DNA of 64,000 bases, from contig NZ_CP114904.1 of NCBI RefSeq assembly GCF_027497215.1, positions 5,289,001 to 5,353,000 on the forward strand, read 5' to 3'. The notes beneath the pieces were generated by a model. The model was given only the letters and a program-made list of their open reading frames with translations, did no database searches and was not told the DNA's origin. Source of the stretch: Micromonospora sp. WMMD812. Lineage in GTDB: Bacteria; Actinomycetota; Actinomycetes; Mycobacteriales; Micromonosporaceae. Shown here piece after piece: positions 38,946 to 41,358 of the stretch (its first letter is position 1; every line of letters begins with the position of its first letter). Made by a program: the position numbers and the translations under genes.

Positions 38946-39036
38946 GTATAGATAATTGCCGCTAAAAGGGGGTTTTTCGGCTTTCGTGAGAAACGTACCG
39001 TCAACGCATCAAGCCCCACCACAACGGGAGATGGCG
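38946..39036 (+). promoter_or_regulatory. AT-rich leader of the decapeptide-repeat gene
   Basis: 91-nt spacer, markedly AT-richer than its surroundings (GTATAGATAATTG, CTAAAAGGGGGTTTTTCGG). TATAGATAAT-like sequence at 38948-38957 could hold a -10 box. It also contains a short AAAAGGGGGTTTTT tract that might terminate the upstream gene. The ribosome binding site GGGAG is at 39026-39030. Confidence 0.35.
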
Positions 39037-39279
39037 ATGACGAAGCGGAAGATCGTGCTGACCGGACTGACCGCGGCGGCCGGGCTGGCGCTCGGACTGG
39101 GCGGCCTGGCCGCCGCCGTAACGGCGATCGGCCCCGGCCCGGGCGCGCCGGGTGAGATCGGCCCCGGTCCGGGCGTGTCCCTCGCGATCGGCCCGGGTCC
39201 GGGCGCGCCGGGTGAAATCGGCCCCGGGCCCGGCGTCGTGGAGTTGATCGGCCCCGGCCCGGGCGTCGTGCTCGCCTGA
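39037..39279 (+). CDS. Small secreted protein made of five IGPGPG decapeptide repeats
   Basis: 80 residues. ATG 39037 is chosen because GGGAG lies 6 nt upstream; ATG 39031 is too close to it. Residues 1-30 are a clear signal peptide (TKRK, then a Leu/Ala/Gly core, ending AAVTA, a type I cleavage site). The predicted mature peptide is residues 31-80 and consists only of five decapeptides: IGPGPGAPGE, IGPGPGVSLA, IGPGPGAPGE, IGPGPGVVEL and IGPGPGVVLA. There is no Cys, Lys, Arg, His or aromatic residue in the mature part. I know of no named family. Stands alone between the PLP enzyme and a convergent terminator. Confidence 0.8.
   Translation: MTKRKIVLTGLTAAAGLALGLGGLAAAVTAIGPGPGAPGEIGPGPGVSLAIGPGPGAPGEIGPGPGVVELIGPGPGVVLA
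39127..39276 (+). repeat. Five 30-bp tandem repeats
   Basis: ATC-GG(C)-start units at 39127, 39157, 39187, 39217 and 39247, exact 30-nt period. Each opens with ATCGGCCC-GGNCCGGGC; wobble positions differ between units, so the array is not a brand-new duplication. Confidence 0.9.
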
Positions 39280-39298
39280 GCCGTTCGATACCTCTGCA

Positions 39299-39330
39299 GT
39301 CGGCGGCCGCCAGGGACGGCGGCCGCCGAC
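39299..39330. terminator. Bidirectional terminator
   Basis: Perfect 13-bp arms GTCGGCGGCCGCC (39299-39311) and GGCGGCCGCCGAC (39318-39330) with a 6-nt loop, between the decapeptide gene and the convergent membrane protein gene. Confidence 0.8.
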
Positions 39331-39346
39331 GCGTCGGGGACGCCGG

Positions 39347-40549
39347 TCAGCTGTAGCGATAGGTGATGGTGGCGACGTTGTCGTCCCGATCGCGTTCCGT
39401 CAGCCGTACCCCGTCGGCGTCGGTGGCGAGGACTTCGATCGTCGCCTTGCCGGCCGGTAACGGCGTGCCCTGTGCGCGCCGCAGCTGGAGGGTGAGCTGG
39501 AGGTCCGCGTGTGGCGCCAACCTGCCCAGGTCGCACTGGTACGGCGCGGTCATCTCGTGGGCGTTCTGGCGACAACGGTCCCAGCCGGCCCCGACCGGTC
39601 GCAGCTGATACGGAACGTCGAAGGTCAGCCTCGCGCTGTGCACCTCACCCGCGCTGCTGTTGCGTACCCGGAGCTTGATGGTGCCCGACCAGCTGTCGCC
39701 GGGTTCCCTGGCGAGGACCAGGTTCGTGGCGGTGACCGACAGGTCGGCGGCGTGCGGGTTCGGGCCGAAGGAGGCCGGACCCTCTGCCTGCCGGAACCGC
39801 CGCCCGTCCCAGCGGTAGCCGCGCCACTGGCGCTGCGACCACTCCAGCGGCCAACTGGCGCCCGGCGCGCGGTCCGCCATCGCCACCCGGACCACGCCGT
39901 CGGCCCGGACCTCCATCCCGATCAGCCACTCCGGGGCCGGGTCCGCGGTCGCCGCCACCCGGCCGAGCGTGATGATCCGGCCGGCGGCGTCCCGGTCGAA
40001 GGCGACCACCTGCGCCGGTCCCCGGGTGCCGAAGATGCAGCGGAGCAGCGTGACCGTCTCCGCCGCGCCGTCCCGGTCGACGTCGCCGTAGGTCAGCTCG
40101 ATCAGCAGGTTGACGTCGTCGCTCACCGGGTCGCCGCTCAGCTGGACGGCCTGGGAGGGGCAGTCCGGCCCGCTCTCCGGCGGGCTGGGCAGGTCGTTCC
40201 AGTCGGGCAGGTCGACTCGGGCGGCGAGCAGCTCCTCCCGGGTGATCCGGCCGTCCGGCACGGTCCGCGTCGGGCTGGCGGTCGCGCTGGGCGTGGACGA
40301 CGGGGAGTTGGTCGGCGTGGGCGGGATGATCGCCGGTGGCGCCGGCTCCCGCCGCAACGCCGCCTGCCCGGCCACCGGCAGCGCCGCCGCGACCACCAGG
40401 GCCGCGGCGACGGCGCCCACGGTGCGCCGCCGTCGCCGGCGGACCGTCTCACGGACCGCGGCCGGCCCCTCCGGGGCGATCGTGGGGACCAACGCGTCCC
40501 GGTACGCGGCGAACGCCGTGTGCAGTCGCATGTCGTCGGCGTCAGGCAT
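39347..40549 (-). CDS. Single-pass membrane protein paired with ECF sigma factor
   Basis: 400 residues from ATG 40549, overlapping the sigma gene by 8 nt. The first ~42 residues are cytosolic and basic (RRRRRR), one helix follows (TVGAVAAALVVAAALPVAG, ~43-62), then a Pro/Ser/Thr linker and an outer part. That part includes a calcium-type loop YGDVDRDGAAET as in FG-GAP-like or dockerin-like motifs, and a C-terminal beta-sandwich (LVLAREPGDSWSGTIKLRVR, VRLTERDRDDNVATITY) resembling CARDB/DUF11 domains. The position and topology are those of an anti-sigma or signalling partner, but no zinc anti-sigma motif is seen. Function inferred from context. Confidence 0.8.
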   Translation of the reverse strand: MPDADDMRLHTAFAAYRDALVPTIAPEGPAAVRETVRRRRRRTVGAVAAALVVAAALPVAGQAALRREPAPPAIIPPTPTNSPSSTPSATASPTRTVPDGRITREELLAARVDLPDWNDLPSPPESGPDCPSQAVQLSGDPVSDDVNLLIELTYGDVDRDGAAETVTLLRCIFGTRGPAQVVAFDRDAAGRIITLGRVAATADPAPEWLIGMEVRADGVVRVAMADRAPGASWPLEWSQRQWRGYRWDGRRFRQAEGPASFGPNPHAADLSVTATNLVLAREPGDSWSGTIKLRVRNSSAGEVHSARLTFDVPYQLRPVGAGWDRCRQNAHEMTAPYQCDLGRLAPHADLQLTLQLRRAQGTPLPAGKATIEVLATDADGVRLTERDRDDNVATITYRYS

Positions 40550-41108
40550 GGGTGGTCCCCTCGTTCGCCGGAGCGAGCTGGGCCGCCAGGGCGGCCCGTC
40601 CCCGGTGCAACCAGGACTTAATCGTGCCCTCGGGCACGTTCTCCTGCTGTGCGATCTGGGTGACGGAGAGGTCCGCGAGGTGGTGCAGCACCACCGCACG
40701 CCGATGGTTCGGCGGCAGGGTGGCCAGCGCCCGGGTCAACGCCACCCGGTCCGGGGTGGGTCCGGGGACGTGCTCCATCCGCTGCCGCCGCAGGTGCGAC
40801 TGGGCGGTCCTCAGTCGACGCCACCGGCTGGTGGCCAGGTTCCACGCGACCCGCCGCACCCAGGCGACCGGATCGTCGTAGCGGGAGACTTTCGACCACC
40901 GCGCGAAGGCGCGACAGAAGGCCTCCTGGACCAGGTCCTGCGCCTGGTTCACGTCACCGATGTACGCCGCGAGCTGGGCGGTCAGCGACCGGAAATGGGC
41001 GTGGTACAGCTGGTCGAAGTCGACCGGGTCGACCGACGGGCGCACGTCCGGCCGGACAGCTCGCTCGGGCGGTGGCTCGTCGAGCCTCGGTTCGGTGCTC
41101 ACCGTCAC
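40542..41108 (-). CDS. ECF sigma factor, SigE-family
   Basis: 188 residues, GTG start with GGGAGGAA upstream. Region 2: FDQLYHAHFRSLTAQLAAYI, then AQDLVQEAFCRAFARW and WVRRVAWNLA. Region 4: LATLPPNHRRAVVLHHLADL and VTQIAQQENVPEGTIKSWLH with the HTH. This is the actinobacterial SigE family of ECF factors, which are usually controlled by a membrane partner encoded downstream, as here. Translationally coupled with the following gene. Confidence 0.93.
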   Translation of the reverse strand: MTVSTEPRLDEPPPERAVRPDVRPSVDPVDFDQLYHAHFRSLTAQLAAYIGDVNQAQDLVQEAFCRAFARWSKVSRYDDPVAWVRRVAWNLATSRWRRLRTAQSHLRRQRMEHVPGPTPDRVALTRALATLPPNHRRAVVLHHLADLSVTQIAQQENVPEGTIKSWLHRGRAALAAQLAPANEGTTHA

Positions 41109-41358
41109 CTGTTCCTCCCCGTCTGGTCACCCCGGTCGATGGGAGTGACGTTGCTGACACGCGGGGGAGCGGGACCGGGTTGCGCCGGTGTGGGCGACAG
41201 TGTGGTGAACGGTCGGTGTCATCGCGGAGACGCCACCGGTGGGTTCGCACTCCGCGACATGGCGGTCGTGTCCGGGGTCCCGCCGGCGTCGCCGCCGGCC
41301 CTCCGAGTCGCCCCCGGTCCTGTGATTGACTGTCGGTGGGGATGGGAAGGGGGCGGTC
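41109..41358. other. 250-nt divergent spacer between sigma factor and nuoB
   Basis: No gene seen. Both promoters must lie here; I cannot pick a convincing ECF-type -35/-10 pair. AAGGGGG at 41347-41353 serves nuoB. Confidence 0.4.

Follow-up and report, generated by a model that had tools for sequence, protein, structure and literature searches.

The elastin-like polypeptide repeat is a pentapeptide of the VPGXG type, collagen-like bacterial proteins carry many Gly and Pro residues in their repeats, and in the yeast alpha-factor precursor a signal peptide leads into several similar units whose number varies. In the passages of PMC5703643 and PMC8786786 cited here, a high combined Pro and Gly content goes with hydrated, disordered, elastomer-like assembly and not with amyloid, and both passages cite Rauscher et al. 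2006 for this link. The AGL cell-surface proteins of Glomeromycotina fungi are described in PMC8786786 as lineage-specific and highly variable, many of them carrying tandem repeats that are rich in Pro and Gly and are predicted to be elastic.

Here, we analyzed a small Micromonospora gene in a 64,000-nucleotide stretch of DNA (the window), whose predicted product carries tandem IGPGP units behind a signal peptide. It resembles collagen-like bacterial proteins in its Gly- and Pro-laden repeats; however, neither IGPGPGAPGE nor any other unit places Gly at every third residue, the Gly positions of the window decapeptide being 2, 4, and 6, plus 9 in the APGE units. It resembles alpha-factor type precursors in having several similar units of variable number behind a signal peptide, but there is no shared processing residue between the units and no linked processing gene among the conserved neighbors. 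The units consist of IGPGP(G/S/T) plus a variable tail and are not of the VPGXG type. Short, tandem, hydrophobic Pro/Gly-rich units, predicted export and disorder, and high Pro+Gly, the last as presented in PMC5703643, are shared with elastin and elastin-like polypeptides. Unlike those polypeptides, the Micromonospora chain is bacterial, spans 40–118 residues, is built on an IGPGPxxxxx unit, has no Lys in the window's copy, and shows no profile or homology link to them. Its likeness to the AGL proteins, as the excerpt of PMC8786786 characterizes them, lies in lineage-specific variability and Pro/Gly-rich tandem repeats; those proteins are fungal with other repeat units, and a sequence relation is not expected.

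The first-pass annotation knew of no described family, and our searches agree. Pfam, NCBIfam, and PHROG profiles matched no family in the window protein, and further members (one searched in Pfam, two in NCBIfam) also matched none. Seven matches in a PDB profile search (E 0.22–0.38) were taken as chance. Papers listed for the IGPGP motif, in a literature set with few subscription journals, concern by title the design of vaccines or epitopes, apart from one on kiwifruit, and among the papers listed in broader searches none dealt with such a family. We regard the gene as representing a new family within a known general kind, the secreted Pro/Gly tandem repeats.

Anatomy of the repeat gene

Translation of 39037–39279 bears out the earlier description of a signal peptide of 30 residues and, after it, five exact IGPGPG decapeptides (Table 1). 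The 80-residue protein is MTKRKIVLTGLTAAAGLALGLGGLAAAVTA followed by IGPGPGAPGE IGPGPGVSLA IGPGPGAPGE IGPGPGVVEL IGPGPGVVLA, and the mature part uses, as had been stated, the residues I, G, P, A, E, V, S, and L only. The reported 30-nt DNA period was recovered as a self-match of 0.69 at lag 30 and 0.72 at lag 60, with 0.22–0.46 at the remaining multiples of 3 up to 60; wobble bases differ from unit to unit. Recurrence of the gene and of its upstream element in 13 further genomes sets the repeat apart from chance. An alternative in-frame start is possible at the ATG at 39031. The opposite strand is also open across the repeat (39009–39575, minus strand); since the GGCCCCGGCCCGGGC core is close to a palindrome, this frame shows PGPGPI repeats.

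The gene had been credited with its own ribosome-binding site and terminator. The former is present, with ACGGG common to all 14 members of the family. The latter holds in part: a perfect, GC-rich 13-bp hairpin (z −3.4) lies downstream between two convergent genes and may serve either of them, but it has no T-run, and a scan for terminator-like sites returned none.

Table 1. Positions of the repeat gene, its parts, and neighboring features within the window
Feature	Position	Strand	Basis or remark
IGPGP-repeat gene	39037..39279	+	80 codons + TGA; orthologues in 13 further genomes
Signal peptide, 30 codons	39037..39126	+	Ends AAAVTA abutting first IGPGP; cleavage predicted by rule
Five 30-nt units: IGPGPG + APGE, VSLA, APGE, VVEL, VVLA	39127..39276	+	Translation, DNA period
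Ribosome-binding site CGGGAG	39025..39030	+	6 nt 5' of ATG
Hairpin, GC-rich, no T-run; possible terminator	39299..39330	.	Between convergent genes
Conserved upstream element GTAT-N13-TWWW-N4-GGTT-N19-CGTASSGT	38946..39001	+	GGTT at 38971, CGTA at 38994
ECF sigma gene	41108-40542	-	Matches Sigma70_r2 and r4 (Pfam)
Membrane-protein gene	40549-39347	-	Paired with ECF sigma gene; no Pfam family matched

Distribution and variation of the family

Profile searches, with three rows and then 14, found the repeat gene in 14 of 160 Micromonospora genomes, including copies in Micromonospora maritima, M. cabrerizensis, M. orduensis, and M. parastrephiae. In the genus search at E ≤ 0.1, with at most 28 candidates scored per genome, 58 of the 160 genomes gave matches. 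The 14 members among them scored E ≤ 5.7e-22 with matches beginning at model position 1, and the best non-member genome scored E 7.7e-6. From the other 44 genomes, eight loci (L064–L071) and the S8 subtilase of G112 (L020) were read, and none was a member. An initial single-sequence search of 61 relatives returned six genomes at E ≤ 1e-3, the real ones being the gene itself and two others (L002, L003); L004–L006 are unrelated low-complexity frames.

Across the family, a profile search at E ≤ 0.01, with at most 12 candidates scored per genome, matched 60 of 354 genomes. Thirty-four of these lie outside the genus, and one match read from each yielded no member; the matches at L080 (E 7e-12) and L082 (E 5e-11) are GPGPG-type repeats within larger frames. 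A DNA pattern for two neighboring IGPGP codings, all matches taken, occurred in 39 of the 354 genomes, i.e., the 14 carriers and 25 others, and reading all 25 produced no member. In a phylum sample of 396 genomes, with at most 11 candidates scored per genome, the own genome alone matched at E ≤ 1e-8, and 45 pattern stretches in viral contigs contained no relative. The single sequence had no match at E ≤ 10 among the 5.8 billion predicted proteins of the public set, and a profile search of that set, in which the best 7993 candidates by shared words were scored, gave three matches at E 2–6. Homologues with variable copy number had been predicted for Micromonosporaceae; these exist within Micromonospora, with 4–10 IGPGP motifs per member, and none was found elsewhere in the family. 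The sequence-based part of the proposed refutation, i.e., frameshifted or missing homologues, did not materialize: related genomes have orthologues, with no frameshift or stop within the repeat in all 14. The small gene is real, apparently undescribed, and present in some Micromonospora species, and we infer that it is usually left without annotation.

All 14 members retain the open frame with its start, a ribosome-binding site, and the signal peptide. By inspection, every signal peptide has the features of a Sec signal peptide and signal peptidase I substrate: a short basic start, a hydrophobic stretch, and small residues at the cleavage site (A at −1, A or V at −3), with IGPGP immediately following. 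IGPGP is the invariant part of the unit, and the tails vary. One subfamily (the window copy, L009–L012, L014, L015, and L018) has 10-residue units whose tails (e.g., APGE and VxLA) often alternate. The other has many IGPGP(S/T) units, some of 11 residues and some with W-IGPT pieces after them. Mature chains of 40–118 residues lack Cys and have an elastin-like composition in 14 of 14 members, with 35–60% Pro+Gly and a positive GRAVY (0.16 to 0.79). An AlphaFold2 model built on five sequences shows a helix over residues 2–29 and coil thereafter, at low confidence (mean pLDDT 53.6), and this predicted coil is compatible with disorder.

IGPGP and similar sequences were also observed in other proteins. 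Two large S8 subtilases (G112: L047:3983-7333, L137; G157: L148) have two IGPGP units directly behind the signal peptide, at the junctions ASA|IGPGPGVPPAIGPGPG and ATA|IGPGPTTTPAIGPGPT; the G112 protein matches Pfam Peptidase_S8. At nine Micromonospora loci (L122, L125, L126, L127, L134, L141, L145, L180, and L182), a small protein ends in two IGPGPxxPP(x)x units; the one of the nine tested is weakly DUF7210-like (Pfam E 0.053, below the cut-off). Frames with a IGPGPIGPPGPIGPGP(A/P)GPRGAS end occur at nine loci of the genus (L123, L124, L131, L139, L149, L178, L179, L181, and L184). In another genus of the family (G290, L150), a protein starts much like the repeat-gene signal peptide (MRKIVIMGATVVAGLAIGGTALAA) and continues as a Pro/Ser-rich chain without IGPGP.

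These occurrences bear on the possibility that the product is a membrane-held or docking ligand, with the hydrophobic N-terminus kept as an anchor or IGPGP serving as a multi-copy binding motif for a partner protein. An invariant IGPGP among varying tails would suit this role, as would paired IGPGP in the subtilases and at the C-terminus of the DUF7210-like protein. We nevertheless regard it as quite unlikely, given a signal-peptidase-type site kept throughout the 14 members, no co-occurring partner, and S8 subtilase genomes (G112 and G157) that lack the repeat gene.

Selection and repeat-number change

Seven orthologues with gap-free 30-residue signal peptides were compared in 21 pooled, non-independent pairs. 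Repeats 1–2 had a pN/pS of 0.04 (134 synonymous vs 12 non-synonymous differences), and signal-peptide codons 2–30 had a pN/pS of 0.38 (174.5 vs 143.5); protein-level constraint is therefore stronger on the repeats than on the signal peptide. The zero non-synonymous count of the IGPGP core within a gene arises by construction and was excluded from the argument. In G096 and G097, the signal-peptide codons are identical while the repeats number 6 and 10, so repeat number changes faster than the remaining gene. The proposal that selection has kept the protein repeat is upheld by the low pN/pS and the open frames in 14 of 14, but its corollary, that wobble differences exclude recent duplication, fails on the G096/G097 pair. 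On this comparative evidence, the IGPGP-repeat gene is a selected protein-coding gene.

There is accordingly barely any chance that the GC-rich repeat is not a protein gene at all and works as DNA or RNA, or is an accidental frame. That view could appeal to the lack of a relative in the public predicted protein set and to the open antisense frame; it is opposed by the kept frame, start, ribosome-binding site, and signal peptide in all members, by replacement changes in the repeats that are far rarer than silent ones, and by an upstream region with no conserved RNA fold.

Upstream element and neighboring genes

About 110 bp 5' of the repeat gene are conserved in both subfamilies. With at most one mismatch, the full upstream element occurs 13 times in 160 genomes, every time 5' of the repeat gene, and its reversed control pattern occurs zero times. 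The fourteenth member (G095) has one extra base between the GTAT box and GGTT and an intact GGTT-N19-CGTA; G129 has CATA in place of CGTA, and the spacing from GGTT to (C)GTA is constant in 14 of 14. Shortened, and with one mismatch allowed, the pattern had one other match in the window's genome, as did its reversed control (1), so the specificity is confined to the long pattern. No sigma-70-type promoter was found. We also rejected a structured RNA leader: the upstream alignment gave no predicted consensus pair, and the best Rfam match reached 22.9 bits against a cut-off of 52. We take the element as a putative alternative-sigma promoter, private to this gene, together with an upstream box.

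All 14 repeat genes, with the L039 copy placed from a sequence-search match and not from gene calling, are flanked by a PLP decarboxylase gene on one side and a nuoB-like gene on the other, co-oriented with both. The interval between these flanks (window 38946-41358, L034–L046, L100–L119) is a variable island in the genus: zero to several pairs of ECF sigma and membrane-protein genes, and a secreted protein (c14), vary in presence there while the flanks stay fixed. Sampled non-carrier intervals, 20 in number, showed no trace of repeat-gene remnants (nhmmer best E 0.05, vs E ≤ 1.3e-39 in 13 of 13 carrier sites fetched); a stray IGPGP string in non-carrier L112 lies within an unrelated frame. 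In a flanking-protein tree of the 14 carriers and 20 non-carriers, the two are interspersed and the subfamilies broadly follow clades, with several weak nodes. The gene is either old with many losses or has moved through recombination of its flanks.

The neighboring sigma/membrane-protein pair raises the question of whether the repeat gene is its output or ligand, the outer domain of the membrane protein sensing the chain. A sigma gene of the same cluster, in the window one with both Pfam sigma-70 regions, lies in the interval of 12 of 14 carriers, 11 of which have a called membrane-protein gene of the 39347-40549 type. Against this, the sigma gene is about equally common in the sampled non-carriers (15 of 20), 2 of 14 carriers have none in the interval, and the order of the repeat gene relative to the pair varies among carriers. 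Upstream of the sigma genes of the 40542-41108 (−) cluster, GGTT-N19-CGTA was found in none of 18; a loose pattern instead finds GCAACC...G(T/A)GTG in 15 of 18, which may be an autoregulatory promoter. Such coupling has only a slim chance of being real. Because the sigma gene is so frequent in non-carriers and GGTT-N19-CGTA precedes none of the sigma genes, the pair is probably incidental to the repeat gene, a likely bystander.

The units and neighborhoods also bear on whether the product is a multi-copy precursor, i.e., an exported chain from which cleavage at the IGPGP junctions releases several decapeptides with a signaling or bioactive role. A signal peptide followed by 4–10 IGPGP units and little besides, exact 10-residue units in the window, and species-specific tails are what such a precursor might look like, and a protease reading IGPGP C-terminal to the cut would make a fixed preceding residue unnecessary. 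However, the residue that precedes IGPGP differs both among the units of one gene and from gene to gene (E, A, P, L, K, or R), which leaves no constant processing site, copies are unlike within one gene (four tails in the five window units), and several members have units of 16–20 residues. Apart from an MFS gene, which is likewise present beside all 20 sampled non-carrier sites, the 14 neighborhoods share no protease, transporter, or modifying enzyme, and no linked modification enzyme of the RiPP type was found among the conserved neighbors of the 14 loci or the Pfam-scanned window neighbors. Because the junction residues vary and no conserved neighbor resembles a processing enzyme, we consider a precursor unlikely, and a decapeptide precursor less likely than an intact chain, although a protease recognizing IGPGP itself would escape both arguments.

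Discussion

To the best explanation, an exported, disordered, elastin-like chain acting whole outside the cell, we give about an even chance. The small accessory gene would be transcribed from its own alternative-sigma promoter, and signal peptidase I would cut the Sec signal peptide directly before the first IGPGP. The remaining chain of 40–118 residues, Pro/Gly-rich, mildly hydrophobic, intrinsically disordered, and multivalent, would stay intact while extracellular and serve as surface or matrix material, or as a spacer or adhesive, its length tuned through gain and loss of in-frame units. The gene, its frame, selection, synteny, private upstream element, and copy-number variation are established by sequence comparison; from these we infer its transcription and the export, cleavage, disorder, and material role of the chain.

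An elastin-like or spacer chain is favored because high Pro+Gly has been linked to disordered, elastomer-like assembly. Several observations argue against it. For an elastomer the chain is short, and in the window's copy there is neither Lys nor Tyr for cross-linking. Three members have only 35–40% Pro+Gly, one member has five Trp and a net charge of +5, and the pLDDT of 53.6 from five sequences is no proof of disorder. More tentative is the wider proposal of an unannotated family, specific to some Micromonospora, of secreted elastin-like mini-chains with a private promoter and with length tuned by in-frame unit gain and loss, which would supply a bacterial elastomer or coat material or a repeat-encoded peptide signal.

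Annotation seems to have passed over a conserved secreted chain that is purely repetitive and has a regulatory element of its own, and surveys of the genus consequently miss the gene. An elastin-like chain would be a minimal bacterial repeat polymer of natural origin, for which sister species already provide length variants; a precursor would be an unusual extracellular peptide of actinomycetes encoded as repeats. With 14 natural variants and a clean absence from other species, the function of the chain is directly testable.
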